Source: Prevotella sp. (GTDB lineage Bacteria; Bacteroidota; Bacteroidia; Bacteroidales; Bacteroidaceae). From it: DNA of 51,195 nucleotides. The notes under the pieces are model-generated. The model saw nothing but the letters and a program-made list of their open reading frames with translations, was not told where the DNA came from and searched no databases. Made by a program: the position numbers and the translations under genes. Of this stretch, positions 463 through 51,122 are shown in pieces (the stretch's first letter is position 1; each line of letters begins with the position of its first letter). The DNA is taken from positions 1 to 51,195 of the forward strand of contig JAFUUL010000143.1 in assembly GCA_017483805.1 (NCBI GenBank), written 5' to 3'.

Positions 463-1725
463 ATGTTTAAGTTTTACACATTCGTAGACACGAAGAAAAT
501 GGATGATACGGGCGAGTCGCCTGTGTACATCGTGGTGAGGAGAAAGGGCGGCGGCAGGTTCTGGCTGTCGACAGGTCTTATGAGCCGTGGTAAACTGGAT
601 GGGCTGTCGTTTTCAGCAGGAACGACGAACGGCAGGCAGCGGACGATGGTGCTTTGCCGTTATCTCCAGCAGACGGAACTGGTGCTTCAGCGCGAGGATG
701 TTGAGGCGATGACGGACGCGGAGGTGAAGCAGGAACTGCTCGAAAGGGTGTTTGGCGTGATGCCGAAGGCGAGACTGCTGACCTTGGCCGAGAATGTTGC
801 CGCCTTTGCTGAGACGAAGAGAGAGAGCACGCGGGTGCTCTACGGCATCACGGAGCGGAAGGTGGCGCAGTTTGACGCGCGTGCCACGCTGGAGAGCGTG
901 GACGGGCAGTGGCTGGAGCGGTTCAGGCAGTGGTGCCTGGACAAGGGGATGCGTATCAACGGCGCGGGTAAGGAACTGCGTAACATCAGGGCTGTGTTCA
1001 ACTGGGCCCGCAGGCAGGGCAGGACGGCGAACTACCCCTTCCTGGACTATTCGATAGTGGAGGAAGAGACGATGCCGAACAACATCAGCGTGGAGCAGTT
1101 GCGGCAGTTGCGAGACTACGCGTGTGAGCCGTGGCAGGAGAAGTACAGGGATTTCTTCATGCTGTCGTTCTACCTGGCGGGGATGAACCCAGTGGACCTG
1201 CTGACGTGCAGGGCCGATGCCGTGAAGGACGGACACCTGCACTTCGTGAGGCAGAAGACGAACAAGCAGGGCCAGCGGAAGGTGAGGGCCGTGGTGCTGC
1301 CAGTGGTGGCAGAGGCCGAGGCCATCATCAGCCGCTACAGGAGCGTTGAGGGCTGGCTGCTGTCGTTCGTGGACGGCAGGACGGACTACCACTCTTTCCT
1401 GAAGAAGGCCAACGAGGCCCTGAAGAAAATCGGGCCGGCGGAGATAGTGCCGGACAGGGTGGGGAAGATGCGCAAGGTGGTGTATCACCCGATACTGCCT
1501 GACATAACGATGTACACGGCGCGGTACACGTTCGGCTCGATAGCGGCGAACGACCTTGACATCAGCGAGCGGACGATAGGTATGTGCCTGGGCCACTCGT
1601 GGTCGAAGAACGTCACGTCGAGATACATGGCCAATGACCAGCGGAAGGTGGACATGGCCGTGATGAGGGTGGTGGAATATGTGGGCGCAGAGGCTGCTGT
1701 GGTACAGCAGCACACTGAACCGTAG
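463..1725 (+). CDS. int: Tyrosine recombinase (phage integrase 1)
   Basis: A 420-residue site-specific recombinase, a normal length for Bacteroidales phage integrases. The N-terminal 40 residues resemble the arm-DNA-binding domain, residues about 100-190 a SAM-like core-binding domain, and the C-terminal half the catalytic domain. The C-terminal box reads TARYTFGSIAAN, then LGHS, then the putative nucleophile Y388 in SRYM. The first catalytic Arg is not obvious at the usual helix (AGMNPVDLL), and a Tyr stands where HxxR normally has His. Both are seen in some Bacteroidetes integrases. The position beside tRNA-Gly points to prophage integration and excision. The last codons run through a copy of the 28-nt element, and the gene is convergent with 1729-2010, only 3 nt apart. 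Confidence 0.9.
   Translation: MFKFYTFVDTKKMDDTGESPVYIVVRRKGGGRFWLSTGLMSRGKLDGLSFSAGTTNGRQRTMVLCRYLQQTELVLQREDVEAMTDAEVKQELLERVFGVMPKARLLTLAENVAAFAETKRESTRVLYGITERKVAQFDARATLESVDGQWLERFRQWCLDKGMRINGAGKELRNIRAVFNWARRQGRTANYPFLDYSIVEEETMPNNISVEQLRQLRDYACEPWQEKYRDFFMLSFYLAGMNPVDLLTCRADAVKDGHLHFVRQKTNKQGQRKVRAVVLPVVAEAEAIISRYRSVEGWLLSFVDGRTDYHSFLKKANEALKKIGPAEIVPDRVGKMRKVVYHPILPDITMYTARYTFGSIAANDLDISERTIGMCLGHSWSKNVTSRYMANDQRKVDMAVMRVVEYVGAEAAVVQQHTEP
1693..1720 (+). repeat. 28-nt hairpin-tail element, copy 1
   Basis: Reference description of the family: an 8-nt arm, a 3-nt loop (usually GGT or GAT), the complementary 8-nt arm, then a 9-nt tail fitting AKACNGRAC. Here the arms are GCTGCTGT and ACAGCAGC, the loop GGT and the tail ACACTGAAC. 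It overlaps the 3' end of the integrase gene. Confidence 0.85.
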
Positions 1726-1728
1726 AGA

Positions 1729-2010
1729 CTATTGGGCAGGTGGCAACTGCTCGCGGAGCCAGTCGATGTGGGCTTTGAGGCGTTTGATTTCGCGGTGGTA
1801 CTGCGTATTCATCTCCCGTTGTGCCTTGTTGGCCATTGCTTGCCTGGCACGCTTGTCTTCAAGTTCCTCGATGCGCTGTTCGAGGCTGCGGGCGTAGGCG
1901 GCGAGGCGTTCGTTGGCCTCCAAGAGACGGCGGTAGTCGCGGATGATGTAGAGCATCCTGCGCTCATAGGGTAGGTCGTCCTGCGGGCGACGGTAGCGGT
2001 TGTCGTTCAT
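1729..2010 (-). CDS. Small coiled-coil protein, unknown function
   Basis: A 93-residue basic, highly charged protein. From about residue 15 to the end it shows heptad-like Leu/Ala/Arg/Glu spacing (RRLLEANERLAAYARSLEQR, then IEELED), so it should form an alpha-helical coiled coil. I chose the ATG at 2010 because it lies 14 nt after the stop of the recombinase gene at 2025; a longer frame upstream only overlaps that gene. It is probably cotranscribed with recombinase 2 and might be an accessory partner such as an excisionase-like or structural factor, but no known family is recognised. Confidence 0.65.
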   Translation of the reverse strand: MNDNRYRRPQDDLPYERRMLYIIRDYRRLLEANERLAAYARSLEQRIEELEDKRARQAMANKAQREMNTQYHREIKRLKAHIDWLREQLPPAQ

Positions 2011-2024
2011 AGGCGATGGTGTAT

Positions 2025-3122
2025 TTATTCGGGTGATTCTTTTCTGAGGTCGGCGATCTGGCGGTAGGCGATGTCGCTCTCCGTCATGAGGCCGTGGTCG
2101 ATGGCGATGGCCGTGACCTCCGTGAGGGCTGCGTTGTAGCCGTGGATGTAGGCTGGCGTGATGGTCTCGTCGCGCTGGGGCAGGAAATAGGACATGATGG
2201 CCGGTGAGACCTTCCGTTCGGCGCAGATGTAACGCTTGGTGGTCTCGATGTTCTTGCCGTGGCCCATCATGAGGGCGATGTCCTCCAGCGTCACGCCTGC
2301 GAGATAGAGGTTGGTGGCGAAGGACCGCCTGGCGGTGTGGGAGGATATGAACTTCCACTTCTCGTCGGTGACGGTCTTGTTGGCGCGCGTGATGGTGTGG
2401 AGCGTGCGGAACTGGCAGTTGCGGCAGATGACGCGGAGGACATCGTTGAACACGTCCTGGCAGGTGGGCCGCTGCGTGACATCGGCGAGGAAGCGGCGCA
2501 GGCGCAGACGCTCGTCGATGGGCACGGTGACAACGATGCCCGGTGTCTTCTTGGGCACGTAGGAGAGCGTCTTGGTGGAGCGGTTGCAGTTGTTGATGGT
2601 GAGGGCCTGCGCGTCGACGAGGCGCGCGCCGGTGAGCATCTCGACGATGAAGTTGCGGTGGACGTACTGCTCTAGGGCTGACGCAGGCTTGTAGTTGATG
2701 AACTGCTGCATCTCGGCGCGTGTGAGGTAGACGGCCTGTGAGGCCCCCTTTCGGACGGAGAGGATGCGCGCGAAGTCATCCTTGTCGGACGGCACGGAGC
2801 GGAAGTTGGCATTGAGCACGGCCTTCAGTTCGGCACACATGGTGCGGATGGATGACGAGGCGAGACCCTGCTGCTTCATCTCGTCGACGAGGTCGCGGAG
2901 GGTGTTGTCGGTCATGTCCTCCCACAGCGGGAGGTGGCCGAGGATGGCGGTGAAGGTCGATATGACCTTGGTGCGCCCAGGGTATTTCCACAGAAACGTG
3001 CCTACGAAGGTGTGCTTCCACTCTCGCGGATTGTCATCGTAGGCGTCGAAGTAGCCGAGGTCGATGGCGTGTCGGTACTTCTTGTTCTGCTCGAAACTGA
3101 GATTTCTGATTTCCTTTCTCAT
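2025..3122 (-). CDS. Tyrosine recombinase 2
   Basis: A 365-residue recombinase with a complete catalytic signature: Arg in LTGARLVDA, HTARRSF (HxxR), MMGHGKNIETT, and the putative nucleophile Y298 in TKRYI. It is only distantly similar to integrase 1 by eye, so it is not a recent duplicate. It is transcribed towards integrase 1 together with 1729-2010. A TAATTTTG box lies 8 nt upstream of the ATG, predicting a nearly leaderless mRNA. It may be a second integrase/excision system or may invert or resolve a different DNA site; no invertible segment was identified here. Confidence 0.9.
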   Translation of the reverse strand: MRKEIRNLSFEQNKKYRHAIDLGYFDAYDDNPREWKHTFVGTFLWKYPGRTKVISTFTAILGHLPLWEDMTDNTLRDLVDEMKQQGLASSSIRTMCAELKAVLNANFRSVPSDKDDFARILSVRKGASQAVYLTRAEMQQFINYKPASALEQYVHRNFIVEMLTGARLVDAQALTINNCNRSTKTLSYVPKKTPGIVVTVPIDERLRLRRFLADVTQRPTCQDVFNDVLRVICRNCQFRTLHTITRANKTVTDEKWKFISSHTARRSFATNLYLAGVTLEDIALMMGHGKNIETTKRYICAERKVSPAIMSYFLPQRDETITPAYIHGYNAALTEVTAIAIDHGLMTESDIAYRQIADLRKESPE

Positions 3123-3130
3123 ATTCTGTG

Positions 3131-3138: not shown

Positions 3139-3170
3139 CGAAAAATTTCTGATATAATTCTATCTTTTGG

Positions 3171-3790: not shown

Positions 3791-3818
3791 GCCGCTATGG
3801 TATAGCGGCATACGGGAC
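3791..3818 (+). repeat. 28-nt hairpin-tail element, copy 2
   Basis: Arms GCCGCTAT/ATAGCGGC, loop GGT, tail ATACGGGAC. It lies between two leftward genes (stop at 3826, start at 3756), with the element reading rightward on the DNA. Confidence 0.85.
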
Positions 3819-7183: not shown

Positions 7184-7211
7184 GGTGCTGTGGTACAGCA
7201 CCATACCGAAC
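7184..7211 (+). repeat. 28-nt hairpin-tail element, copy 3
   Basis: Arms GGTGCTGT/ACAGCACC, loop GGT, tail ATACCGAAC. With its flanks (7175-7222) it matches 8340-8387 at 47 of 48 positions. Confidence 0.85.
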
Positions 7212-7212: not shown

Positions 7213-8307
7213 CTAAGAGACTTTGCGGAGGCTTCTCGTGTCCTCGACGAGTTGGCCGACGGTATCACCGACGAGGTCATCATCATCCCACCAATGAGCA
7301 CCCGTGCACTCATCCTTGACGAACGTGTAGATGTCGCTGAGCATGGCGTCGCACTCTTTGCTGTCGAAGAAGCAGAAGGCGTGGAACTCGGAGATGCAGG
7401 AGCGGCGAATCTCGTCGAGCGAGACGTCGGGCTGTATGCCGAGATACTGACGCATGGTCTCTATATCCTCGTCATAGTAGCCGCACTCGTAGTAGTAGGT
7501 CTCGTCATCCTCGTACCAGCCTTTGGAATGGCCGAAGCCACCGAATGAGTAGGTGCGGCGTCCGCCCTGGAAAGGGTAGACGGCGGTGCAGGTCTCGATG
7601 ATGTGGCAGACGAAGTTGAGGCAGTTCTCCAACTCTGGGAGAACTGTGACCTCTTGGTCGGAGTGTGCCTTGTAGTAGCCGCACGAGAGGTTGAGGCAGG
7701 AGATGCCCACGCCGCGCTCGGTGAGTTCGCCTACGTCGGTGATGGAGCCGCTGTCGTGCTTGTAGCCGAAGGCATCGGCCCCGATGGCCTGCACGAACTC
7801 CTCGGAGCACACGTCGCCGCAGAACATATCGGTGATGAGGTCGTGGCCGCCGTGCCTGTCCGGCTGGACGATGAAGCGGCAGTCACGGAAGAACGAGAGG
7901 TCGCAGGCCCGTGAGCCGACGCATCCCGTCTCCTCGCCGACGAAGAACGCCACCTTGAGCACATCGTAGCGGCGCAGGCACTCGAGGCAGATGAAGATGC
8001 CGTTCTTATCGTCGGCACCGAGCCCCTGCTGCGCCATGCTGCGGGCGGAGAAGGCGAAGGCCACGCCGTCGTGCTCGAAGACACGGAAGTCCTTGGAGTG
8101 GTAGCGCTGCACCTGGTCCATGTGGGCTGCAAGACAGGGGTAGGTGTCGGAAGTGCCCTTCGTGATGAAGAGGTTGCCGAGACGGTCCTGCTCGATGCTC
8201 GTGGCCCCGCAGGCTGCTGCCTGCTTTTTGAGGAAGCGACGCATACGCTTCTCGCTGCCGCTGGGGGAGTGGATGGCGTAGAGATTGAAAAGAAGTTCTT
8301 TGTTCAT
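7213..8307 (-). CDS. M20/M28-like zinc metallopeptidase (PepT-like)
   Basis: A 364-residue di-zinc exopeptidase-type protein. Metal and catalytic motifs are visible in order: H62-x-D64 in AAHMDQV, D99/D100 in GADDKNG, E125-E126 in FFVGEETGCVGS, D150 in QPDRHGG, and H215 in YYKAHSDQE. This matches the pattern of tripeptidase T and M42/M20 aminopeptidases. No signal peptide is seen, so it should act in the cytoplasm. The real start is MNKELLFNLYAIHSP at 8307; the upstream frame to 8880 is out of register with the coding pattern. The C-terminal 90 residues (Tyr/Asp-rich) look like an addition. It is an uncommon phage cargo and may release amino acids, or cleave a host peptide signal. Confidence 0.85.
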   Translation of the reverse strand: MNKELLFNLYAIHSPSGSEKRMRRFLKKQAAACGATSIEQDRLGNLFITKGTSDTYPCLAAHMDQVQRYHSKDFRVFEHDGVAFAFSARSMAQQGLGADDKNGIFICLECLRRYDVLKVAFFVGEETGCVGSRACDLSFFRDCRFIVQPDRHGGHDLITDMFCGDVCSEEFVQAIGADAFGYKHDSGSITDVGELTERGVGISCLNLSCGYYKAHSDQEVTVLPELENCLNFVCHIIETCTAVYPFQGGRRTYSFGGFGHSKGWYEDDETYYYECGYYDEDIETMRQYLGIQPDVSLDEIRRSCISEFHAFCFFDSKECDAMLSDIYTFVKDECTGAHWWDDDDLVGDTVGQLVEDTRSLRKVS

Positions 8308-8348: not shown

Positions 8349-8376
8349 GGTGCTGTGGTACAGCACCATACCGAAC
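8349..8376 (+). repeat. 28-nt hairpin-tail element, copy 4
   Basis: Arms GGTGCTGT/ACAGCACC, loop GGT, tail ATACCGAAC. Near-identical duplicate of the copy at 7184, between the peptidase start and the stop at 8390. Confidence 0.85.
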
Positions 8377-11531: not shown

Positions 11532-12253
11532 CTTCTCACTTGAATTGGTTAAACATTGAAGGAGCGGGCAGGTTTCCCGTACTCGCTCCCGTAGTCTCTC
11601 CGACTTCGTTTTTCGTACTTTCATTCTCTCTTGGGACTCCCGATTGCTCGGACATCTTTGCCCCATCCGTCGGATATTGGCATATTTGGTCATATGCCGG
11701 GCCGTTCTTTATTCTGTGGGTCTTTCACCCGTTAATGTCTTTCGGCGTGGCCGATGGCGAATCGTTTGCTCATCGCTCAGCCCGATGGCCTGCTAAAGTG
11801 ATTAAATGGGCCATCGTACTTTTGGCGGGAACCACCACGATACATCCTCCGATATATCGTACTGCATACGCAGTCGCTCTCCGCAAGTAACCAGCGGTTA
11901 TTATCGTACTCTCATCACGAGATGAGATAATCGTTAAAAAGAATATGATTTGTATCTCTCCCCAGGGGCGTAGCCATGTCGCGCACCATTGCAGATAACT
12001 GCCGCGGGAGTCCGTTGTTCGGTCAGACAGCGGCTCTCCCGTTCGGCTTGCTCGTTCGGTCGTTCGGTACGACTGAAATGCCGTTCGGCTCCGCATTTTC
12101 CCGCCGGTCGTTTCCTACCCGTCAGCCGTTCGGCTGGTGGTGGGGTTGGGCGTGTCGGCAGGCCCTTGCCTGTGCTGTGTGTTCGTCAGGGCTTGCAACC
12201 TGCATCCCGAAGGATGGCCACATTACACGGGAAGTCTCCCGTGTGCTCTGTGT
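11532..12253. other. Non-coding or undeciphered stretch with TCGTACT and GTTCGG repeats
   Basis: No convincing gene: open frames on both strands have poor composition and no plausible start signals. TCGTACT occurs at 11613, 11814, 11857 and 11904 (also 11294 and 11371, just to the left). GTTCGG recurs several times between 12018 and 12135. Small hairpins occur at CAGCC/GGCTG near 12112-12125 and at GGCAGGC/GCCTGTGC near 12160. It probably holds regulatory sites or short RNAs of the leftward operon. Confidence 0.4.
12225..12244 (-). promoter_or_regulatory. Perfect hairpin after the gene at 12254
   Basis: ACACGGGA and TCCCGTGT with the 4-nt loop AGTC, just beyond the stop codon. Without a T-run it is more like the other intergenic hairpins of this operon than a terminator. 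Confidence 0.5.
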
Positions 12254-15029: not shown

Positions 15030-15365
15030 ATGGAAGAGAAGAAGAAGCGGGTGCGCCCCACGGTGGCGCAGGTGAGAGCGTTGGAGGCAAGGGTTGCCGA
15101 GTTGGAGAACCTGACGGCTGCACGGGATCGTGCGCTTGTGGAGGCAATGGAGGAACTGAAGGGCGTGAAGACGGCATTGCTTCAGGCCAGGGAGTGTTCG
15201 GACAGTGCCATTCATACGCTTGAACAGAGCAATGCGCTGATGGAGCAGGAACTGAAGTTGCGTGAGTCGAAGATTGCGCTGCTGGAGGAGGTTGCCGACA
15301 ACAGGGCAGCGGAGGTGGAGCGTCTGAAGGGGCGCGGCTTCTGGGCGCGGGTATTCAACAGATGA
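15030..15365 (+). CDS. Coiled-coil protein
   Basis: A 111-residue protein with a basic N-terminus (MEEKKKRVRPTVAQVR) followed by a nearly continuous coiled coil (ALEARVAELENL through AAEVERLKGRG) and a basic C-terminal end FWARVFNR. It may bridge partners in the replication complex or bind membrane through its aromatic tail. It directly precedes the helicase gene, from which it is separated by a 28-nt element. Confidence 0.65.
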   Translation: MEEKKKRVRPTVAQVRALEARVAELENLTAARDRALVEAMEELKGVKTALLQARECSDSAIHTLEQSNALMEQELKLRESKIALLEEVADNRAAEVERLKGRGFWARVFNR

Positions 15366-15368: not shown

Positions 15369-15396
15369 GTCGCTATGGTATAGCGACATACAGGAC
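15369..15396 (+). repeat. 28-nt hairpin-tail element, copy 5
   Basis: Arms GTCGCTAT/ATAGCGAC, loop GGT, tail ATACAGGAC. It lies 24 nt upstream of the helicase start codon. Confidence 0.85.
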
Positions 15397-15419: not shown

Positions 15420-16952
15420 ATGAAGGACAGTGCTGTTATTGACAAGTTGTTTTCCGAGATGCTGAGTATCAGTGCTCGGTCGGACTTCAACTTTGAGAAG
15501 TTCAAGGGGGAGTGGGGGAACAAGGCTTCGGGTATGTGGCAGGAGCGTTTCCTCGACTTCATAGAGACGATACGGCGGTTGGCGAAGGAGGTGCCTGTGA
15601 TGTACTATGACGGCAGTTTCTTCATGTTCGACGGGCGTATCTATGTGTCGGTGAGGGAAGAGTTGCTGATTACGGCCTACGACCTGCTGCTGGAGCACCT
15701 GCGCATCGTTCCGATGATAGGGAAGAAGACCATCTGCATGAAGTACTTCGTGGACATCATCAGGTACTTCAACCTGCTGTTGCCGCGTGCGAACCTTGTG
15801 GCGTTCAACAACGGCGTGCTTGACTTGCGTGACTACGAGTTCTATGATTTCAGCCCAAAGTGGCACGTGACATTCTACCATCCCTACAACTATGACTCGA
15901 AGGCGAAGTGCAACAAGTGGCTGAACTTCCTGCATGAGGTGCTGCCGGACAAGAACTCCCGCCTGATATTGCAGATGTTCCTTGGGCTGGGCCTGATGGA
16001 GCGCGGCAGCGTGTACAACCCCTATGAGGGCAAGAACGCGGCGAAGATAGAGTTGTGCCTGATACTGATAGGCAGCGGTGCCAATGGCAAGAGCACCATC
16101 TACGACACTGCCATCGGCATCTTCGGCAAGGAGCGCATCAGCGGCCTGGACTATGATGACCTGACGGCCCCAGGTGATGAGGGCATGAGGGCGCGGCGGC
16201 TGTTGCGCGATGCCCTGTTCAACTGGAGCAGCGACAGCGACCAGCGCACCTTCGGCAGGAAGCGGACGGGTGTGTTCAAGCGTATCGTGAGCGGTGAGAG
16301 CGTGACGGACAGGAAGTTGGGTGAGGACGTGAAGGAGAACTACAACATCCCGTTCCTGATTTTCAACCTGAACGAACTGCCGTACAGCGATGACCAGAGC
16401 CTCGGCTTCATCCGCAGGCTTCAGTTCATCAACTTCGAGTATGTGGTGCCGAAGGAAAAGCAGAACCCGAACCTGTCTCGTGAGTTGGTGGCCGAATATC
16501 CCGGTATCTTCAACTGGATTATGCGCGGCGCGAAGGAGTTGCGCAGGCGGAAGTTCGTGTTCCCAGACAGCGAGGGCAACAGGCGGCAGATACTTGCCGC
16601 TCAGTTGCAGATAAACCCCGTTATAGCGTGGATAAACGCCTACCAGATGCGCTGGGACGCGAGGGGCAAGGGCGAGTTGTCGACGTGGATTACCACGGAG
16701 GATATGTTGAAGAGCCTGACGGCCTTCTGCCAGGACAACAATGCCGACATGGTGACGAAGCAGAAGTTCGGCCAGACGATGGGCAAGGCCGGCGGCCACG
16801 GCTTCTTCAAGCGCAGGATGGGCAACGGCACGGAGTACCAGGTGTACGGCTGTGATGCTGCCAGGCTGAAGCGTCCCTTTATCATTGAGAGCGAGGACAT
16901 GAAGATGGACTATATCAGCGAGAGGGGAACATTTATCGGTGATGATGACTGA
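15420..16952 (+). CDS. D5/P4-type SF3 helicase (primase-helicase family)
   Basis: A 510-residue replicative helicase. Walker A is GSGANGKST at residues 218-226. Downstream are the family's typical segments: RTFGRKRTGVFKRIVSGE (substrate loop) and PFLIFNLNELPYSDD (Walker C-like, with the sensor Asn in FNLNELP), followed by GFIRRLQFINFEY with a probable arginine finger. The first about 190 residues match a D5_N-type domain, and the C-terminal 120 residues probably form a winged helix. It lacks a complete N-terminal primase domain, so priming must come from the host or another gene. It is the core replication gene of the phage. Confidence 0.88.
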   Translation: MKDSAVIDKLFSEMLSISARSDFNFEKFKGEWGNKASGMWQERFLDFIETIRRLAKEVPVMYYDGSFFMFDGRIYVSVREELLITAYDLLLEHLRIVPMIGKKTICMKYFVDIIRYFNLLLPRANLVAFNNGVLDLRDYEFYDFSPKWHVTFYHPYNYDSKAKCNKWLNFLHEVLPDKNSRLILQMFLGLGLMERGSVYNPYEGKNAAKIELCLILIGSGANGKSTIYDTAIGIFGKERISGLDYDDLTAPGDEGMRARRLLRDALFNWSSDSDQRTFGRKRTGVFKRIVSGESVTDRKLGEDVKENYNIPFLIFNLNELPYSDDQSLGFIRRLQFINFEYVVPKEKQNPNLSRELVAEYPGIFNWIMRGAKELRRRKFVFPDSEGNRRQILAAQLQINPVIAWINAYQMRWDARGKGELSTWITTEDMLKSLTAFCQDNNADMVTKQKFGQTMGKAGGHGFFKRRMGNGTEYQVYGCDAARLKRPFIIESEDMKMDYISERGTFIGDDD

Positions 16953-16960: not shown

Positions 16961-16988
16961 GCCGCTATGGTATAGCGGCATACGGGAC
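16961..16988 (+). repeat. 28-nt hairpin-tail element, copy 6
   Basis: Arms GCCGCTAT/ATAGCGGC, loop GGT, tail ATACGGGAC; the same arms as copies 2 and 23. It lies between helicase stop and the ATG at 17004. Confidence 0.85.
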
Positions 16989-21503: not shown

Positions 21504-21531
21504 GTTGCGATAATATCGCAACATACGTGAC
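21504..21531 (+). repeat. 28-nt hairpin-tail element, copy 7
   Basis: Arms GTTGCGAT/ATCGCAAC, loop AAT, tail ATACGTGAC. It lies between leftward genes. Confidence 0.75.
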
Positions 21532-21533: not shown

Positions 21534-21776
21534 TTACGGTGCAGGGAAGTTGCAGTCCTGTGAGAGGCGTTTGATGAGGTAGTAGAACTGCCTGATGCTG
21601 ATGCCGTATTTCCGGGAGAGGGTGGCTGCGATGTATGAAATCTTCTCCTGTCTGGCTACCATGCTGATATAGTCATCATACATCTGTATGAAGCGTACAT
21701 CGCCCGTGCTGATGCAGTGCTTCTGCATCAATTCAAGTAAAATTTTGCCAATTTTCAATAATTCCACGACTTTCAT
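21534..21776 (-). CDS. Small HTH protein (Mor-like)
   Basis: An 80-residue protein starting MKVVELLKIGKILLELMQ. A helix-turn-helix is likely at about residues 48-70 (ISYIAATLSRKYGISIRQFY), similar in pattern to Mor-type activators and to small-terminase DNA-binding domains. It is encoded next to the structured RNA at 21813-21949, whose promoter box lies just upstream on the other strand. It may regulate late or packaging genes. Confidence 0.65.
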   Translation of the reverse strand: MKVVELLKIGKILLELMQKHCISTGDVRFIQMYDDYISMVARQEKISYIAATLSRKYGISIRQFYYLIKRLSQDCNFPAP

Positions 21777-21956: not shown

Positions 21957-21984
21957 GTTGCTGTGGTACAGCAACATACCTAAC
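21957..21984 (+). repeat. 28-nt hairpin-tail element, copy 8
   Basis: Arms GTTGCTGT/ACAGCAAC, loop GGT, tail ATACCTAAC. The tail contains the stop codon of the leftward gene at 21980. Confidence 0.85.
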
Positions 21985-22548: not shown

Positions 22549-22576
22549 GTTGCTGTGGTACAGCAACAGACGGAAC
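22549..22576 (+). repeat. 28-nt hairpin-tail element, copy 9
   Basis: Arms GTTGCTGT/ACAGCAAC, loop GGT, tail AGACGGAAC. It lies between portal stop (22579) and the small terminase start (22531). Confidence 0.85.
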
Positions 22577-25927: not shown

Positions 25928-25955
25928 GTCGCTGTGATACAGCGATATACGCTAC
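25928..25955 (+). repeat. 28-nt hairpin-tail element, copy 10
   Basis: Arms GTCGCTGT/ACAGCGAT (outer pair G.T wobble), loop GAT, tail ATACGCTAC. It lies in the 5' leader of the leftward packaging operon. Confidence 0.75.
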
Positions 25956-26197: not shown

Positions 26198-26250
26198 CAA
26201 TGAAGGCAGAAGGACTGCTTTCAGGATAACAAAAAAACGAAGAAACTTTT

Positions 26251-27005: not shown

Positions 27006-27033
27006 GTCGCCGTGATACGGCGACAGACGGGAC
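27006..27033 (+). repeat. 28-nt hairpin-tail element, copy 11
   Basis: Arms GTCGCCGT/ACGGCGAC, loop GAT, tail AGACGGGAC. Between scaffold and decoration genes. Confidence 0.85.
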
Positions 27034-27554: not shown

Positions 27555-27582
27555 GTCGCCGTGATACGGCGACAGACTGAAC
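27555..27582 (+). repeat. 28-nt hairpin-tail element, copy 12
   Basis: Arms GTCGCCGT/ACGGCGAC, loop GAT, tail AGACTGAAC. Between decoration and capsid genes. Confidence 0.85.
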
Positions 27583-28801: not shown

Positions 28802-28829
28802 GTCGCTATGGTATAGCGACAGACGGAAC
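28802..28829 (+). repeat. 28-nt hairpin-tail element, copy 13
   Basis: Arms GTCGCTAT/ATAGCGAC, loop GGT, tail AGACGGAAC; 2 nt after the capsid stop. Confidence 0.85.
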
Positions 28830-28844: not shown

Positions 28845-29321
28845 ATGCCTGTAAGCGAGAATGACACCAACAGAGTTTACACGGTCGGGGACTGGCTCTT
28901 CGGCTGTGTGAACTTTGCCGTACCCCAGAGTGCCGTGGATGCCATCTGTGCCCAGCGTGGCGTGGAGGCAGGGACGGAATATGGGGGGTATATCGCTGCG
29001 ATGACATCGCAGTCAACGGAAGAAGATGCTCCGCTGCCTGACATCAGGCTGCTGAAGGCCGACCTCTACAAGTGGATAGTGCTTGGCCCTGGCAAGGTGA
29101 ACAACACCTCGGACTCGGACAACGGCTGGAGTCACAGCGAGGGCGGCTACAGCCTGAGCAAGGATGACAAGAAACTGCTGATGGGCGAGGCCAACGCCAT
29201 CTATGAGGAACTGGAGCCAGAGAGCGTGTTCGGCAAGCGTCAGACCAAGGTGCACTCGCGCGGCATCATGCCTGCGATGAGGAGCCTTGACGGGGAGCCG
29301 CTGCCGAGGGTGTTGCTGTGA
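28845..29321 (+). CDS. Head-tail connector protein 1
   Basis: A 158-residue protein starting MPVSENDTNRVYTVGDWL. Helical with acidic patches; first gene after major capsid, the place of the adaptor that binds the portal. It contains a degenerate element copy at 28996. The stop codon TGA falls inside element copy 15 (VLL, then TGA in the hairpin loop). Confidence 0.65.
   Translation: MPVSENDTNRVYTVGDWLFGCVNFAVPQSAVDAICAQRGVEAGTEYGGYIAAMTSQSTEEDAPLPDIRLLKADLYKWIVLGPGKVNNTSDSDNGWSHSEGGYSLSKDDKKLLMGEANAIYEELEPESVFGKRQTKVHSRGIMPAMRSLDGEPLPRVLL
28996..29021 (+). repeat. Degenerate 28-nt element inside a gene, copy 14
   Basis: Arms CTGCGAT/ATCGCAG (7 bp), loop GAC, tail TCAACGGAA. It lies in the coding sequence of 28845-29321 and may be chance; the tail matches weakly. 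Confidence 0.4.
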
Positions 29322-29339
29322 TACGGCGACAGACGGAAC
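29312..29339 (+). repeat. 28-nt hairpin-tail element, copy 15
   Basis: Arms GTTGCTGT/ACGGCGAC (two T.G wobble pairs on the plus strand), loop GAT, tail AGACGGAAC. The stop codon of 28845-29321 lies in it. Confidence 0.85.
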
Positions 29340-29352: not shown

Positions 29353-29796
29353 ATGAGGAAGGAACGTATAGACAACCCACGATACCCGCACCACATCAGG
29401 ATTGTGCGCAGGAAAGAGACGGACTGGCTGGACGCTGACGGCGCAGAGACGCTGGAGGCGGCTGCTGGTGACGGCGAGGCTGTGTACGAGACAGACGAGA
29501 TTGTGGTGTATGAGGGGCCTGGGAGAAGTTATACGGACACCACCACGACCGGTGACAAGAAAGTGGACACGAACAAGCGCAAGGCGAGCATTCCCGTGCG
29601 CTTCGACGAGTGGCCGGTTGCGATGGAGCAGGAACAGACGGGAAGGCTGGTTCCGATGAGCGGGGATATTCTCTACGTGACGAAGGGGCACATCACAGAG
29701 GAGTGGGAGGTGAAGGACTTCGAGCCCGACAACAACCGCTCCGTGGTGTACGGCGAGATGAACAGGAACCTGGACATGGGAGTCGCTATGATATAG
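29353..29796 (+). CDS. Head-closure / neck protein
   Basis: A 147-residue product starting MRKERIDNPRYPHHIRIV; the frame upstream of 29353 only translates element copy 15. Beta-rich with a basic N-terminus and an acidic, Thr-rich central loop (YTDTTTTGDKKVDTNKRK). Second gene after major capsid, the place of the stopper/head-closure protein. The stop TAG lies in element copy 16. Confidence 0.65.
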   Translation: MRKERIDNPRYPHHIRIVRRKETDWLDADGAETLEAAAGDGEAVYETDEIVVYEGPGRSYTDTTTTGDKKVDTNKRKASIPVRFDEWPVAMEQEQTGRLVPMSGDILYVTKGHITEEWEVKDFEPDNNRSVVYGEMNRNLDMGVAMI

Positions 29797-29809
29797 CGAC
29801 AGACTGGAC
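29782..29809 (+). repeat. 28-nt hairpin-tail element, copy 16
   Basis: Arms GTCGCTAT/ATAGCGAC, loop GAT, tail AGACTGGAC. It contains the stop codon of 29353-29796 and ends 7 nt before the next ATG. Confidence 0.85.
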
Positions 29810-30369: not shown

Positions 30370-30397
30370 GTTGCTGTGATACAGCAACAGACGGAAC
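30370..30397 (+). repeat. 28-nt hairpin-tail element, copy 17
   Basis: Arms GTTGCTGT/ACAGCAAC, loop GAT, tail AGACGGAAC. Confidence 0.85.
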
Positions 30398-30419: not shown

Positions 30420-30836
30420 ATGATTGAGGCTGAGGACATACTGGAGGTGATGGGGCTGCGGGCGCGGAGCGTCTGCAAGAAGGTCTATCCGCAGAACCGG
30501 CCACGGGCCAGCGTGGAGCGGCTGACTGAGTTCATCGTGGTGTCGCTACCCTACTCGGAGTCGAACAAGACAGTCGGCGAGGATGATGACTACTGGCTGG
30601 ACGAGACGGTGGTCTTCGAGATCTACGTTGCTGACAGCAGGCGCGCCGACAACCCGAACGAGATGAACACGAAGCGGATGAAGACGCTGAGGGGAAACCT
30701 GAAGGCCCTGTTTCCGATAGTGGACGATGAGGGGAGGTTCAAGATTGTGTGTCCGAGGACCGTGGTCAACGGCAGCAGTGACGGCAACGGGTATCACTAC
30801 TCGCGGGTGCAGGCTAAGATGACGACAATGGTATAG
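30420..30836 (+). CDS. Tail terminator / completion protein
   Basis: A 138-residue product starting MIEAEDILEVMGLRARSV. An alpha/beta protein with an acidic central segment (ESNKTVGEDDDYWLDETV) and a C-terminal beta region. It directly precedes the tail tube gene, the usual tail-terminator location. Assigned by position and size. Confidence 0.55.
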   Translation: MIEAEDILEVMGLRARSVCKKVYPQNRPRASVERLTEFIVVSLPYSESNKTVGEDDDYWLDETVVFEIYVADSRRADNPNEMNTKRMKTLRGNLKALFPIVDDEGRFKIVCPRTVVNGSSDGNGYHYSRVQAKMTTMV

Positions 30837-30845: not shown

Positions 30846-30873
30846 GTTGCCGTGATACGGCAACAGACTGAAC
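30846..30873 (+). repeat. 28-nt hairpin-tail element, copy 18
   Basis: Arms GTTGCCGT/ACGGCAAC, loop GAT, tail AGACTGAAC. Confidence 0.85.
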
Positions 30874-31581: not shown

Positions 31582-31637
31582 GTTGCTGTGATACAGCAAC
31601 AGACGGGACGCAACAGACGGAACGCAACAGACGGAAC
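31582..31637 (+). repeat. 28-nt hairpin-tail element, copy 19, with triplicated tail
   Basis: Arms GTTGCTGT/ACAGCAAC, loop GAT, tail AGACGGGAC, followed by two extra 14-nt copies of GCAACAGACGGAAC (31610-31623, 31624-31637). The last arm and tail are thus in three tandem units. Confidence 0.85.
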
Positions 31638-35900: not shown

Positions 35901-38900
35901 ATAGGTATGGAGTTGTGGCAAAAGAACAACGAAGAAGTTGAGCGTGCCACAGAACTGAACGATGCTCTATTCAACAGAGCCGTAGAAGGTATCAAGAATA
36001 TCAAGACCATGATGAGTGAGACAGGTTTTTCATTTGTCATAGATGGTCAAGAATCAACGTTTAGCGAGATAGAGGACTTGAAAAGAGGTGGAAAGTTTGT
36101 CTTTACTCCAGCGGCAGAACTTACAACAACAGAGATGGTGTCTGCCATAGAAAAGTGGACAGAGTTCATAAAAGAATATTCCGCGAACAAAAATTCCATT
36201 CTCAATGATTCTTATGCCGATGAGGCAGGAAATGTCCGCTCACTATCAGACCTGTATGAGAGGCTTGGAGAAAAAGTCGGAGAGACTGCTGAGGCTTATG
36301 TATGGCTAAAGCAGGCCAGCGATGCAGCGGAGTTTGCAGAGTCGGCGACCAATGGGGGTATTTTAGACGGGGCATTTGATGATGACTTAATTACGAATAT
36401 CAACGATTATGCTGATGCCTTAAAGGATTTTAATGACGGTATCAGCAAGACCATCATGAGCCAGCGTGGCGATTATTCCAAGATTCTTGCATCAGCAAGG
36501 AAAGACGGCTTGTTCCTGAGAGCGTTGAAATCTGAGGGCATAGAAATGGATAACCTTTCGGCGCAACTGAGAATTCTCGTTGAGAGAGCCGATGAATTTG
36601 GGAATGCCATAGAATTGGCAAAAGACCAAGCCTCTTCTATGGGTTTGGTATTAGATGATTTTGATAGATCGTTAGATTCTTATTGGATATGGGACCATAC
36701 CAATACGGATCGTCTTGTGTCTATGCGTGACGCCCGTAAGGATATGGAGGCAGATATTAATGCCTATATCAGAGGCTTCAAGCAGAGAATTGCCGAAGCC
36801 GGATGGGACTTGAATGACCTCACAGAAAGTCAGAAACAAGCCATTGCTCTTGCCATTGCTGAGACTGTAGCCAAAGCGAATAAAGGAACGGAGGAAGTGC
36901 GCAAGGAAGTGGAAAATCTTATGCGTGAGAAGTTTGGAATCGAACTTGACGCAGATACTGCTCGTGCCATAGCGAATGTAGTCGGCTTAAAGCAATCACT
37001 TGAAGAACTTGTCGGACATGACTGGCATATTGATGTAAAGACGGCAACTGACTTTGGCGATGTCATCAAGAATGTCCGTGCCGACTATAAGAGTGCACAG
37101 GAATATTTCAACAATGTTAAGCCTCTAATGATGAAGATGGGCATTGATGTCAGTGGAGGAATGAAGAAACTGACAGCAGGGCAAAGAAAGACATTCATTG
37201 ATGCGTGGAAAAAAGATCATGGAGAAGATACTACTGCTGCAGAAATGATATTGAACGACTATGATGCTCTTGCAGACAAACTGAATGATGCACTTGATTT
37301 TAATACTGCAACAGGAATCAGTTTGACAGACCCGACCAAAGAGAACAAAGACAACAAGACTGACAAGCAGTTGAAGCAGTGGCGGGAGGAGTTGAAGGAG
37401 ATCAAGGCGTTCTGGAGCGAGTATGAGAAGTTCCTGCGGTATATGACGAGCAGCGAGGCCGTGGAGGAGATACGGCGGAAGGGGCTATTCCCGTCGCTGT
37501 TCAAGGACGGGCAGTTGACGATGGACGTGAGTGGCGGTCTTGGCAGTGCGCTTGACACGCTGCTGGGAAAGACCAACGGGAGCACGACGGAGCGCAAGGC
37601 CTTCCAGGTGGAGGTGAAGCAGGCGCGTGCGGAAGTTGACCTGAAGGACAAGGAGGAGACGGCGAAGAACATACTGAACCAACTGGACGAGGCCCTGAAG
37701 GAGCAGGGCAGGCGGTGGGATCTGTACAAGAAGATACTGGAGGCCACCGGCAGCAGGGAGCAGGCCGGGCAGATAGCGTTCGGAAAGGACTTGGGCTTCA
37801 AGAACAGGGCAGAGCAGTTGAGGGCCGAGGTTGCGGCAGAGACGCAACAGACGGGGAAGAGCGTGGACGAAGTGCTGGGAATGGACGATGAGAGCCTGCA
37901 CCAACTGGGCATCTTCGAGAAGGCCGCCAACGGCATCTACCAGAAACTGAAACTGCTGAAGGAAGAGGAGCAGAAGGTGAAGGCTGAAGAGGTGGAACTG
38001 TTTGTGGACGCGCTGAAGAACGCAAAGAGCCTTGACACGGAACTGGAGCAGATACGCGTGAGGTATGAGCGGACGAGGGCTGCGATCATATCGCAGCAAA
38101 CTGGGCAAGAGCGCGACACGCTGATAGCCAATGCCAACAAGAACGAGGCGAAGGAGGTGGCCGACAAGCAGTGGGAGTACTTCAAGAAGAGCGATGACTG
38201 GGGCAGGATTTTCGGCAATCTGGACAAAATGACCACGCGGACGCTCCGTGGTATGCGTGACAGGCTGGAGGAGATGGCCCCGAGCCTGAGTGAGAGCGTG
38301 GAGGCGACGAAAGCCCTCTATGAGGCCCTGGAGAAGATAGACAAGGTGGCGAACGGCCGTAACCCGTTCAAGACGATGGGTGATGCCATCAGCCGTGACA
38401 TAGGCATCAAGGGCCTGCTGAACAGGGGTGTGAACCAGTACGGCTACAGAAACAGCGAAGGTACTTACAGCATAGACGCTGCCAACGCCCGGAAACTGGG
38501 TCTGACGGTGAACTCCAGCGGCAAATACACGAAAGGAGAACTGAAAGATGCCGAGAAGGGTGCATCGGAGGACTTCAACACTGGCATCAAGGGCCTGGTG
38601 GATGACTTCGCTGCCCTGCAGGATGCCCTACAGCCGGTGATAGGTCTGTTTGATGCCCTTGGCATGACTGGTGTGAGCGATTTCCTGAACATGGGCAGTA
38701 ATGCTCTGACAGCCGCCGGCCAGATGGGGCAGGGAGCCTCCGCTCTCTTGGGTTCTGCCGCAGGCCCTTGGGGAGCGGCCATCGGTGCTGGCCTGAGCGT
38801 GGTGTCCTCGCTGTTCTCGATGCACGACGCGAGCCTGCAAAAGGAGATAGAGGCCTCGCAGGCTCGTCAGAAGGAGATGGAGAACCTGACGAAGAACCTG

Positions 38901-39935
38901 GAAACGGCCCTTGAACGGACTCTTGGCAGCATCTACAGGACGGAGGCTTCGGAAAAGGACCTGAACAAACTGAGAGACTACAGGAGCAAGTACGACAAGG
39001 CCCATAACGCTGACCCCACAATTGCCAACTGGTACAAATTCAGTTACGGCTACATATCGGAAGATTCGAAGGCTGCTATCGACAAGGCCCTGGAATCGGA
39101 GAGTTACTATGACACGAAGTTTGCAGAGATGAACCTTCAGCGCGACGAGTTGAACAAGCAACTGCAAGCCGAACAGGGGAAGAAAGACAGCAGCGACACC
39201 GCCATAGAGGACTACAAGCAGCAGATAGCCGAACTGGAGGACGAGATCGACCACTTTGCAGAGGATATGGCCGAGAGCATCTACGGCATAGACGTGAAGA
39301 GTTGGGCGAGTGAACTTGGCGACGCGCTGTTTGAAGCCTGGCAGAAGGGTGAGGACGGTGCAGAGGCTTTCAAGAAGAAGGCGCGTGAGGTGATTACCGA
39401 CGTGGCAAAGAGGATAGCCGTGCTGAGCCTGATAGAGACGGCAATGGAGCCGGTACTGGATGTGGTGCGCAACGAGATGAAGCGCACAAGCGGCAAACTG
39501 GATGAGGAGAGCGTGGCAAACATAGCCGCCGCGATGGGCGTGGTTGGCGAGACGCTGCCAGACGCCTTCAACAAACTGATGGACGGACTGGACCTGGGCT
39601 TGCAGAAGGCAGGACTGGGGTCAATGAAGGACGATGCCGAGAGCACGACGGCGAGCAAGGTGATACAGGGCGGCTTCACGGAGAACGAGACGGGGCTGCT
39701 GCTGAGTTACATCAACGCTATGCGTGCCGACCTGAGCGTGCAGCGGATGGACGTGTACGGCATCCGCCAGTTGCTGGAGGGTAATTTCTCGGAAATGCCT
39801 GCGCTGGCACGCGCCCAGTTGCAGCAGTTGCAGCAGATAGCACAGAACACCTACAGGAACGCTGATGCCGCCGATGCCATCTACAACCTGTTGCACAGGC
39901 TGGCTCCCGATGGCCAGAAACTGAGGGTGGGGTGA
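32958..39935 (+). CDS. Tail tape measure protein
   Basis: A 2325-residue protein, one of the longest genes here; at roughly 0.15 nm per residue it implies a long tail, near 350 nm. The N-terminal 700 residues are coiled coils (LREVIEKLQVDLSKITAE and others). Membrane-like segments are seen around 815-835 (VVLGTVRALTFT), 966-990 (PLTAAFAIAGIGMEL) and 1925-1955 (GAAIGAGLSVVSSLF). The C-terminal part contains further coiled coils. Up to about 37365 the codons are AT-rich, after it strongly GC-rich, so the gene appears to be a recombinant. A copy of the 28-nt element lies in frame at 38079. Confidence 0.9.
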   Translation: MAQDNMYFDWGMKGRLEEQIKAASKDGEHLREVIEKLQVDLSKITAEKIQQSIQKNVDDAEKALYKLMDAKEKVDKALSRNMAMRNDGFLGMDESKLLQVSARLDEIINKVMNVGAEAAFSKTSVKDMLSALSTDIALKDARSATSVMDKGLDKQIKERAKAQKEAIKDIESAFADSDKAAKNNVKNQELVKDAIAKIATARANLSAASEKGNQQEVAHAQLLMNLLDRLAGKLNALKGQFLGEKGALDGVLGSGYQGLMRNVSQAVRDIGKVESSVAQGPVNLLAGKDADFKRIQDITAEMTTIQQKLRELKAEESKGVFSPKDVELLKQRYEALRTELESVRQSLRQIGEMSNVYGGIGHLRGYTGPQSAMSDDAWAAAKREAEIREVAAQAAQKHARKLVELTEAFDRQAKAEERANQVAQANSEAQARAQEKTISQAKARQQNSQAIRRQAEELVRLRLELLKTQAAELSTLMKNGRGTLSTSQYDQLKEALRGVVHEMTTLRNVMADMSNFSTRDLFGYGRGGQDWSALISNSQQIIGAQQSIRQLSMEEEKFSQAIQRATAELTGQNRVLGDLQMMVQNYLSLWGAKSFIDNIIQIGGQLEMQRMSIGAILGDTAHANDLFEKIKSLAVQSPFGVVELDQYTKQLSAYGFKYNELYDMTKRLADISAGAGTDVSRLALALGHVRAEGALSGYTLRQFAMNNIPMVGELAKKLTEVEGRLVTIAEVRKRVREKLIDYKDVEDVIMRLTDEGGMFHNMQEVVSESVKARFKNLKDSLDIMYGEMAESDLGGELKTVAAVLTELSRHWKELFAVLKAGIVVLGTVRALTFTNRVLLGTEAMAVQRGVDAKLRSDKANIKLASSYRLLTASEKAFNGARGEALILANSLALSEKKLTVEGVARQVALGRLTKAEGLRSITLSTLTAAEKAQGYAVVSNVLTYGRYTGIVNGLTLSLKSLGVALKSLVWNPLTAAFAIAGIGMELWQKNNEEVERATELNDALFNRAVEGIKNIKTMMSETGFSFVIDGQESTFSEIEDLKRGGKFVFTPAAELTTTEMVSAIEKWTEFIKEYSANKNSILNDSYADEAGNVRSLSDLYERLGEKVGETAEAYVWLKQASDAAEFAESATNGGILDGAFDDDLITNINDYADALKDFNDGISKTIMSQRGDYSKILASARKDGLFLRALKSEGIEMDNLSAQLRILVERADEFGNAIELAKDQASSMGLVLDDFDRSLDSYWIWDHTNTDRLVSMRDARKDMEADINAYIRGFKQRIAEAGWDLNDLTESQKQAIALAIAETVAKANKGTEEVRKEVENLMREKFGIELDADTARAIANVVGLKQSLEELVGHDWHIDVKTATDFGDVIKNVRADYKSAQEYFNNVKPLMMKMGIDVSGGMKKLTAGQRKTFIDAWKKDHGEDTTAAEMILNDYDALADKLNDALDFNTATGISLTDPTKENKDNKTDKQLKQWREELKEIKAFWSEYEKFLRYMTSSEAVEEIRRKGLFPSLFKDGQLTMDVSGGLGSALDTLLGKTNGSTTERKAFQVEVKQARAEVDLKDKEETAKNILNQLDEALKEQGRRWDLYKKILEATGSREQAGQIAFGKDLGFKNRAEQLRAEVAAETQQTGKSVDEVLGMDDESLHQLGIFEKAANGIYQKLKLLKEEEQKVKAEEVELFVDALKNAKSLDTELEQIRVRYERTRAAIISQQTGQERDTLIANANKNEAKEVADKQWEYFKKSDDWGRIFGNLDKMTTRTLRGMRDRLEEMAPSLSESVEATKALYEALEKIDKVANGRNPFKTMGDAISRDIGIKGLLNRGVNQYGYRNSEGTYSIDAANARKLGLTVNSSGKYTKGELKDAEKGASEDFNTGIKGLVDDFAALQDALQPVIGLFDALGMTGVSDFLNMGSNALTAAGQMGQGASALLGSAAGPWGAAIGAGLSVVSSLFSMHDASLQKEIEASQARQKEMENLTKNLETALERTLGSIYRTEASEKDLNKLRDYRSKYDKAHNADPTIANWYKFSYGYISEDSKAAIDKALESESYYDTKFAEMNLQRDELNKQLQAEQGKKDSSDTAIEDYKQQIAELEDEIDHFAEDMAESIYGIDVKSWASELGDALFEAWQKGEDGAEAFKKKAREVITDVAKRIAVLSLIETAMEPVLDVVRNEMKRTSGKLDEESVANIAAAMGVVGETLPDAFNKLMDGLDLGLQKAGLGSMKDDAESTTASKVIQGGFTENETGLLLSYINAMRADLSVQRMDVYGIRQLLEGNFSEMPALARAQLQQLQQIAQNTYRNADAADAIYNLLHRLAPDGQKLRVG
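38079..38106 (+). repeat. 28-nt-like element inside the tape measure gene, copy 20
   Basis: Arms GCTGCGAT/ATCGCAGC, loop CAT, tail AAACTGGGC. Encodes AAIISQQTGQ in frame. The tail matches weakly, so it may be a decayed copy. Confidence 0.5.
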
Positions 39936-40015: not shown

Positions 40016-40043
40016 GTTGCTGTGATACAGCAACAGACAGAAC
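40016..40043 (+). repeat. 28-nt hairpin-tail element, copy 21
   Basis: Arms GTTGCTGT/ACAGCAAC, loop GAT, tail AGACAGAAC, followed by a partial tail repeat GCAACAGAC at 40046-40054. Confidence 0.85.
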
Positions 40044-40065: not shown

Positions 40066-40590
40066 ATGAGCAAATGGAATAACTTCTACTTACAGCGGAT
40101 GGGTACTGGCAGCAACGGCAGTGCCTATCCGGTGTGTGAGAGTGTGGCTACATGGGGAATGTGGTGCAGCGAGATTCCCTTCAAACTGGCAGAGAAGGCG
40201 AAAGAGCCCGCCAAGCGTTCGTTCCACGATGAACATGGCGACGAAGAGTTTATCCCGAGCGGCGGTCTGATGATGGAGGCCTACGACATGAAGGTGAAGT
40301 TCGGTTGCAAGCGGATGACGAGTGGCCGTGATACGGCCACATACGGAACGCAGGTGAGCGACGTGAGGCAGAAGGTGAAGGCCTTCCTGGACTATCTGAG
40401 GCAGAGCGGGATGATGAAGATGTACTCGACCCATACAAGGATCGGGCGGAGGTACGTGAGGCTTCAGTCGGTGGGCGACAACGCCAAGTGGGTGACGAAG
40501 GATGACATGGAGTTTCTGATGTTTGAGGTGACGCTGAAGGTGAACGACCCTGTGACGGATGTGACCTCCAGCGAAATGGGCATAGCGTAA
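40066..40590 (+). CDS. Distal tail protein
   Basis: A 174-residue protein starting MSKWNNFYLQRMGTGSNG. It lies between the tape measure and the large tail hub/fibre gene, the conserved distal-tail position. Mixed beta structure (MMEAYDMKVKFGCKRMTS). Contains an in-frame copy of the 28-nt element at 40322 (residues SGRDTATYGT). Six nt from the next start codon. Confidence 0.65.
   Translation: MSKWNNFYLQRMGTGSNGSAYPVCESVATWGMWCSEIPFKLAEKAKEPAKRSFHDEHGDEEFIPSGGLMMEAYDMKVKFGCKRMTSGRDTATYGTQVSDVRQKVKAFLDYLRQSGMMKMYSTHTRIGRRYVRLQSVGDNAKWVTKDDMEFLMFEVTLKVNDPVTDVTSSEMGIA
40322..40349 (+). repeat. 28-nt element inside the distal tail gene, copy 22
   Basis: Arms GTGGCCGT/ACGGCCAC, loop GAT, tail ATACGGAAC. 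It is a full match inside a coding sequence. Confidence 0.75.
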
Positions 40591-49590: not shown

Positions 49591-49625
49591 TTCTCTTAGT
49601 ATTAACAAATAAAATCAACAAGACA

Positions 49626-49973: not shown

Positions 49974-49975
49974 TT

Positions 49976-50449: not shown

Positions 50450-50484
50450 AAACATCGGTGTAACAATCTAAAAAAATGTAGGAA

Positions 50485-51090
50485 ATGATACTACCTGGAA
50501 CAGACCTGAAATACATGATCCACGCATACGTGCCTGGCTTCCAGATGGCCTACGACGACTTCACACTGGAGGTGAAAGACGGTTTCGGCAGGACACGCAT
50601 GCAGATGTCCCGCGCCGACATGACGCACGACGACCAGGGGCGCTTCATGCTCCTGATGCCCAACGTGCAGGTCGGCACCTACTACGGCGTGCTGACGGCA
50701 CGCGCCAGCGACGACGACTTCCCCGGCGGCCACCGCAACACCAAGGTGCAGGCACTGATCTGCGTCGTGGGAACGGACGGCGGCGCACGCCCCTCGCCGG
50801 GCATGAACACCTACAGGTGCGACGAGGCCTATGTGCGCTTCGAGCGGGTCTACGGGCCGCCGATACCAGCCACGGACGGCCTGCGCGAGTTGGTGCGCGA
50901 AATGGTGGCCGACGCCATGCACGACACCGCCCCGGTGGCCGGACTGGAAACCGGCAGCGTGACCAGTGAGCACATCAAGGACGGCACCATAGGCATGGAA
51001 GACCTGTCGCCGGAAGCGCGCGAGGCCATGGAGAACCAGTTCGCCACCGAAGACGACGTGCGCCATTTGCTCGGCCTCCCAGACAACTAA
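50485..51090 (+). CDS. Phage tail-tip / structural protein
   Basis: A 201-residue product starting MILPGTDLKYMIHAYVPG. An N-terminal beta-sandwich-like domain (FTLEVKDGFGRTRMQMSR) and a helical C-terminus (ELVREMVADAMHDTAPVA). The linker GSVTSEHIKDGTIGMEDL resembles tail-fibre sequences. It probably belongs to the tail tip or adsorption apparatus. Confidence 0.6.
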   Translation: MILPGTDLKYMIHAYVPGFQMAYDDFTLEVKDGFGRTRMQMSRADMTHDDQGRFMLLMPNVQVGTYYGVLTARASDDDFPGGHRNTKVQALICVVGTDGGARPSPGMNTYRCDEAYVRFERVYGPPIPATDGLRELVREMVADAMHDTAPVAGLETGSVTSEHIKDGTIGMEDLSPEAREAMENQFATEDDVRHLLGLPDN

Positions 51091-51094
51091 GGCT

Positions 51095-51122
51095 GTCACC
51101 TATGCCGCTATACCATAGCGGC
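51095..51122 (-). repeat. 28-nt hairpin-tail element, copy 23, reversed orientation
   Basis: On the minus strand: arms GCCGCTAT/ATAGCGGC, loop GGT, tail ATAGGTGAC. It is the only copy in this orientation and lies after the gene ending at 51090. Confidence 0.75.

Follow-up and report, generated by a model that had tools for sequence, protein, structure and literature searches.

Contig JAFUUL010000143.1 of the Prevotella sp. assembly GCA_017483805.1 (51,195 nt, analyzed at its full length and called the window in the following) carries the genes of a phage, among them those for an integrase, a primase-like protein, a portal, a large terminase and head proteins, and between and within these genes a 28 nt element made of a hairpin and a tail recurs again and again. 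What kind of element is this, and what brought so many copies of it into one phage? Our analysis points with good confidence to a REP-like (repetitive extragenic palindromic) element belonging to a divergent RAYT (REP-associated tyrosine transposase), with this HUH/Tyr transposase of the host as the likeliest mobilizer. Among the three roles guessed in the initial annotation of this DNA, the mobile REP-like element is thus the one that stood, whereas a processing or translation signal fits poorly and a recombination linker between modules found no positive evidence.

All 20 coordinates that had been listed contain the element when checked against the window sequence. With a loose pattern which does not require pairing and allows up to one mismatch we count 22 copies, namely the 20 listed ones and the in-gene copies at 38079 and 40322, instead of the roughly 23 first announced. 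The excess over shuffled sequence is clear: 100 dinucleotide shuffles of the window gave a mean of 0.01 copies and never more than 1. The copies are the following:

1693..1720, + strand: element, overlapping the end of the integrase-like frame 463-1725
3791..3818, + strand: element
7184..7211, + strand: element, directly past the stop of the - strand gene 7213-8307
8349..8376, + strand: element, having a 63 nt stretch (87%) in common with the copy at 7184
15369..15396, + strand: element, directly past the stop of 15030-15365
16961..16988, + strand: element, directly past the stop of the primase-like gene 15420-16952
21504..21531, + strand: element, past the stop of the - strand gene 21534-21728
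21957..21984, + strand: element, at the stop of the - strand gene 21980-22531
22549..22576, + strand: element, past the stop of the - strand portal gene 22579-24243
25928..25955, + strand: element with an outer G.T pair, upstream of the - strand terminase gene
27006..27033, + strand: element
27555..27582, + strand: element, directly past the stop of 27077-27547
28802..28829, + strand: element, directly past the stop of the major head gene 27642-28799
29312..29339, + strand: element with two T.G pairs, overlapping the stop of 28845-29321
29782..29809, + strand: element, overlapping the stop of 29353-29796
30370..30397, + strand: element, directly past the stop of 29817-30365
30846..30873, + strand: element, directly past the stop of 30420-30836
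31582..31609, + strand: element, followed by two half copies
31610..31637, + strand: two direct half copies (right arm and tail, 14 nt each)
38079..38106, + strand: element within the large gene 32958-39935
40016..40043, + strand: element between 39935 and 40066
40322..40349, + strand: element within the gene 40066-40590
51095..51122, - strand: element in the 141 bp common to the window and the end of contig C188

The copy at 51095 (hairpin 51104-51122) is the sole one on the - strand, which the initial annotation had left unstated, and the other 21 of the 22 copies lie on the + strand. The stem of 8 bp (G.T pairs counted) and the loop of 3 nt described there are present in all 22 copies; the tail AKACNGRAC, which had been called conserved, is exact in 16 of them, the exceptions being the copies at 1693, 21504, 21957, 25928, 38079 and 51095. 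Both claimed wobbles are real, two T.G pairs at 29312 and the outermost G.T pair at 25928. Folding of three copies as single-stranded DNA gave -8.0 and -8.9 kcal/mol for two of them, better than all 200 shuffles, and -3.7 kcal/mol for the wobble copy at 29312, for which 7 of 200 shuffles were equally good.

Compensatory changes that argue for a single-stranded hairpin had also been claimed, and this was borne out. In a set of 203 unique 28-mers taken from the window and the loci fetched by then, in which kin copies were treated as independent, the four variable pairs are of the Watson–Crick type in 196, 194, 188 and 200 sequences, far above the largest values reached in 2000 shuffles (125, 113, 92 and 124, respectively). 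All eight stem pairs are Watson–Crick in 175 and standard pairs in 188 of the 203 sequences. The stem pairs 3-17 and 6-14 were not constrained by the retrieval patterns; the pairs 2-18 and 7-13 were restricted to Y/R classes in several retrievals and weigh less. No Rfam family matched the element.

The element is not confined to the window. The genome from which the window comes (3.63 Mb) has 71 strict matches, as compared to 1 match to the reversed pattern, and 25 of the 71 lie on phage contigs, 19 in the window and 6 on the phage contig C188. This corresponds to about 0.36 copies per kb on these two contigs (69 kb) versus 0.013 per kb in the remainder, which may include other phage contigs. 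At least one tailed match was found in 129 of 398 genomes of the genus, the richest having 71, 39, 36, 35 and 34, and a scan of IMG/VR yielded 111 viral stretches with the element. Many host copies are two-tailed, i.e., they carry a tail on each side of the hairpin. Direct tandem clusters, mostly with copies 33–39 bp apart and on a single strand, were seen at two loci of genome G001 (L009 and L012), and six identical copies with a spacing of 66 bp lie at G009:C23:52511-52868.

The protein products of two genes that hold two-tailed copies share the motifs MPDH[LF]HG and YLxDNP, which by analogy with the table of Quentin et al. (2018, PMC6006769), as far as this source was available, would be the HUH and Tyr motifs of a RAYT. 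PF01797 (Y1_Tnp) had been tried as a marker and was rejected, as its presence in 60 relatives did not follow the element counts when judged by eye; the RAYTs that matter here are divergent, and it was the element inside them that led to their detection. The 30 best loci yielded 28 RAYT frames, whose proteins are mostly 340–380 aa long. In 26 of these 28 frames a perfect hairpin (counted as any linker stem of 7 bp or more without a mispair) lies between the HUH and Tyr motifs, and the main, narrower scan finds an element copy in 18. The in-gene stems are mostly GTTGCTGT/ACAGCAAC, GTTGCGAC/GTCGCAAC or GTTGTGAC/GTCACAAC, and one is GTTGCGTT/AACGCAAC. The window's own genome has four RAYT-like genes, and only the one on contig C81, an open frame with both motifs, has the element inside, as a two-tailed copy. 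Across 23 aligned RAYTs the D and both H of the HUH motif are invariant and the Tyr is present in at least 90%; the NCBIfam model NF047646 (REP_Tyr_transpos) matches all 23. A structure predicted from the 23 sequences has a mean pLDDT (predicted local distance difference test) of 76.7, and the residues 138-165 around the element-encoded stretch stay below 50. The RAYT at L174:260-1333 and its relatives are in addition conserved over some 160 residues at the C-terminus, a region with alternating helices and strands in the model and without a Pfam match. Among viral contigs 45 pattern matches were obtained and none was a relative of the RAYT in a single-protein scan that reaches close relatives only, so that the phages perhaps do not encode it.

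The presence of the element goes with the presence of a RAYT. Counting distant paralogues, a RAYT match at E up to 1e-10 was found in 223 of the 398 genomes; at least one element occurs in 114 of these 223 and in 15 of the 175 others (Fisher p 8e-21, kinship ignored), the mean number of element matches being 2.9 with and 0.23 without a RAYT. Five or more matches are found in 27 of the 223 genomes with and in 2 of the 175 without a RAYT (p 9e-6), and the 43 genomes with the closest RAYTs, chosen by hand with E below about 1e-120, have a mean of 8.8. We also looked in 24 genomes at a variant hairpin found in some RAYT genes. Genome G346, whose RAYT holds the variant, has 15 variant-type and 2 main-type matches, which supports, in this one genome, a coupling of RAYT type to hairpin type. 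The other seven genomes with a variant RAYT have 3 (G193), 2 (G203), 0 (G118), 1 (G268), 3 (G208), 1 (G240) and 5 (G387) variant matches, nine of ten genomes with a main-type RAYT have 0 to 3, and six genomes without a RAYT have none.

Comparison with related phages points to a recent arrival of the element in the phage. Relatives of the head protein (57–94% identical) are found in 23 viral loci, and these loci (about 221 kb) have 5 element copies as against 20 in the 51 kb window by the same criterion. At the element sites of the window the alignments with related phages are gapped near stop codons, the borders being uncertain at a flank identity of about 65–80% and some alignments being scattered. 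In a pair of other phages, which are 96% identical around the site, the insertion is resolved to the base: L048 has, compared to L043, a clean insertion of 26 nt (hairpin and ATACGGA) between GG and AC without target duplication. The element also enters genes in frame. The valyl-tRNA synthetase (ValRS) gene of G166 has one in-frame copy which adds 8 residues missing from 14 relatives, and further in-frame copies lie inside CbiET-like and GH97 genes.

The phage copies have a strand polarity. The 111 viral loci were grouped into 59 clusters, 53 of them usable, and in 49 of the 53 the element is on the G-rich strand, as compared to 27 of 53 for the strand that is coding for the majority of the genes. 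This holds even for clusters in which the majority of genes run against the element: it occupies the G-rich strand in 24 of these 26. GC skew in the phages is positive on the element strand in 40 of 42 cases for sense genes, in 30 of 40 for antisense genes and in 41 of 48 for intergenic DNA, and 51 of the 53 multi-copy viral loci are uniform with respect to the strand. Of 18 bins of the window 17 have a positive GC skew, and the odd one out is the last bin of 195 bp, which has the - strand copy; AT skew goes with the direction of the genes. In many replicons it is the G-rich strand that is more exposed. Read on this strand the hairpin comes first and then the tail; the guide of canonical REPs lies 5′ of the hairpin and would here be on the C-rich strand.

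We propose that a Prevotella group harbors the repeat as a non-autonomous, REP-like mobile element, most likely mobilized by an HUH/Tyr transposase of the RAYT (TnpA_REP) type that the host encodes. The RAYT would recognize a folded single strand with an 8 bp stem, a 3 nt loop and the foot ATACGGRAC (GTYCCGTAT on the other strand) and would insert the element at G^AC, leaving the target unduplicated. The copies that survive would mostly lie directly past a stop codon or else lengthen a tolerant loop in frame, and host copies would have entered phage genomes, keeping there one polarity, that of the G-rich strand, regardless of gene direction. Such a fixed polarity fits insertions made during replication, at a time when one of the phage strands is single-stranded. 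That the RAYT cuts and moves the element, and does so in trans on phage DNA, is our inference, and so is the choice of its substrate strand.

A number of observations weigh against this explanation. The RAYT association is partly built in because a RAYT gene holding the element itself counts as a match, two-tailed copies were counted twice, and the figures are not corrected for ancestry or for the incompleteness of metagenome-assembled genomes. One of the 15 genomes with the element and without a RAYT match has 12 element matches. Apart from G346, the variant matches in variant-RAYT genomes are several times the in-gene copy only, with few or no extra copies, and G385 has 8 variant matches in spite of a main-type RAYT. 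The RAYT member shown scores 29 bits with NF047646 at a cut-off of 80, PF01797 matches just 6 of the 23 RAYTs at E up to 0.1, the RAYT profile matches nine IS200-like proteins weakly with 30% probability, and a sequence search of the PDB with the RAYT gave zero matches. The pair L048 and L043 is the only empty site at the base level, and scans for empty versions at four other single sites yielded filled versions only. On chromosomes we expected the same rule for the G-rich strand and had to reject it: out of 35 regions from three genomes 6 were without an oriented copy and 1 was a tie, and 16 of the 28 left agree (G083 10/11, G175 2/2, G009 4/15), the agreement in G083 being explained by gene direction since the intergenic skew agrees in only 5 of 11. 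The polarity is a property of the phage copies. A guide on the C-rich strand moreover conflicts with a simple story in which the lagging-strand template is the target, if the G-rich strand is this template.

Could then another enzyme move this REP-like element, the RAYT gene being a frequent target or co-traveller only? The 15 of 175 genomes that carry the element without a RAYT match would suit this. In 26 of 28 RAYT frames, however, the hairpin occupies one and the same position, as it does in the published RAYTs of subclass 2.4 in the portion of the source available (PMC6006769), and we regard another mobilizer as improbable.

A little less probable still is that the hairpin is primarily an element of mRNA 3′ ends, i.e., a stabilizer, a weak terminator or a processing site, which phage and host have kept. 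We determined gene positions for 140 oriented copies (window and cluster representatives) with a simple purpose-made gene predictor. Intergenic copies prefer gene ends, with 60 of 96 no more than 15 nt away from a gene 3′ end and 12 of 94 equally close to a 5′ end, and the stem is stable, as such a function would have it; however, 39 of the 140 copies are inside predicted genes, related phages do without the element, and one strand is kept though the genes run both ways, so that about half of the copies would be antisense. The processing or translation signal of the initial annotation fits poorly for the same reason, because copies keep one strand with genes on both. A secondary role at transcript ends may exist. 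In the regions fetched from G083 predicted genes contain every one of the 15 oriented copies, mostly in antisense, and in those from G009 none of 26, all of these being intergenic.

An oriented DNA signal of phage or host, Chi-like, for packaging or uptake-like and kept for its polarity, would account for the 51 strand-uniform loci out of 53 and for a polarity that tracks GC skew. We hold it to be very improbable, as the element is nearly absent from related phages and patchy in the genus (129 of 398 genomes), the hairpin covaries without a fixed sequence, RAYT genes carry the element inside and chromosomes do not follow the polarity rule. Hardly credible is a recombination site (attC-like or of a tyrosine recombinase) for swapping single genes between phages: there are single genes flanked by copies in one orientation, and the copies at 7184 and 8349 have their 63 nt stretch in common, but in-frame copies lie in the ValRS, CbiET-like and GH97 genes and in RAYTs, the one resolved insertion is a clean lone element without a cassette, and cassette exchange, although never specifically sought, was not seen. 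The module linker of the initial annotation has no positive evidence on its side.

The phage of the window resembles the LoVEphage group, with weak DNA matches to 6 records, the best being Bacteroides phage BI-TP1 (71.6 kb). There are three tRNA genes at the left end of the window and a tRNA-Met gene at 26126-26198 between the terminase and structural genes. A type-P5 twister ribozyme lies at 12187-12252 on the - strand (RF02684, 48.3 bits, above the Rfam gathering score). The last 141 bp of the window (51055-51195) are identical to the end of C188, and the only - strand element of the window sits within them. That this common end is an invertible segment of one phage was considered and dropped, C188 having its own portal gene of another family; the exactly 141 common bases look like an assembly fork.

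Returning to the proposed RAYT-mobilized REP, a family which has heavily invaded phages, relatives of these phages that are nearly empty, a candidate transposase which holds the element and the polarity together make mobilization testable with an induced prophage and one host gene. Such REPs might jump into phages while the phage DNA is single-stranded. That a host RAYT actively seeds REPs in trans into replicating phages, always into the same single-stranded strand, is a tentative extension to which we give not quite an even chance. If true, phages would be both victims and vectors that spread REPs from strain to strain, and the fixed polarity of the copies would record, like a fossil, which of the two phage strands had been single-stranded. 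The mechanisms of REP dissemination are called poorly understood in the accessible part of one source (PMC8266576).

How does the element compare to known systems? As is expected of a REP, it is a short palindrome within 20–50 nt in many copies (28 nt; 71 strict matches in its own genome, 22 copies in the window), there is a gene for an HUH transposase with a single Tyr that has REPs at or in it, and RAYT presence goes with REP presence, the figures being inflated by the in-gene copies. Inverted pairs (BIME/REPIN) are not seen, with 21 of 22 window copies on one strand and 51 of 53 multi-copy viral loci uniform, and the element does not have the 5′ foot GTAG or GT[AG]G. In the accessible parts of open-licence full texts on REPs or RAYTs together with phages, prophages, Bacteroidetes or Prevotella, neither phage-borne REPs nor REPs of Prevotella are described, and neither are a comparable load and polarity in phages.

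The initial annotation knew of no described family that matches. This has to be corrected, since REPs with RAYTs, and even in-gene REPs with a foot on both sides, are published. All comparisons that follow hold for the parts of the cited sources that were available. The TnpA_REP subclass 2.4 (RAYT group 4), reported from Bacteroidetes and Cyanobacteria, has double-foot REPs in frame inside tnpA between the HuH and Y motifs (Quentin et al. 2018, PMC6006769), and in both respects it is like the RAYTs described here. It differs in its motifs (NH[IFV]H and YIxNNP versus DH[LF]H and YLxDNP here), in its size (on average 194 aa without a core extension, versus mostly 340–380 aa with about 160 residues past the Tyr motif here) and in its foot (PMC6006769). 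The last difference also speaks against our explanation: the foot of subclass 2.4 is GT[AG]G versus ATACGGRAC here, with GT[ACT]T as complement beside the stem, and in the 203 unique copies the complement of tail positions 1-4 is GTAT in 121, GTCT in 48, GTTT in 26 and GTGT in 8. With the REP/RAYT systems of Escherichia, Pseudomonas and Stenotrophomonas (PMC8266576, PMC3116915) the element has in common the many short palindromes, often near gene ends, and the single-Tyr HUH transposase, whereas here there are no inverted pairs in the window, the copies are single or in direct tandem, the foot is another one and the phage load is heavy. The hairpin substrate, the seamless insertion (one resolved case here) and the strand polarity in phages recall IS200/IS605 (PMC6006769), from which the element differs in having no gene and a length of 26–28 nt, with no tnpA between hairpin ends. 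REPs are reported chiefly from positions downstream of coding regions, with others inside genes (PMC3733652). In-gene REPs and the palindromic elements of Rickettsia are similar in being in frame in housekeeping genes including tRNA synthetases and in preferring sites downstream of coding regions; they have other sequences and hosts, and a phage load is not described for them in the available part of that source (PMC3733652). What apparently is new is the foot sequence, the long RAYT and the polarized phage load, whereas RAYTs with in-gene double-foot REPs had already been published (PMC6006769).

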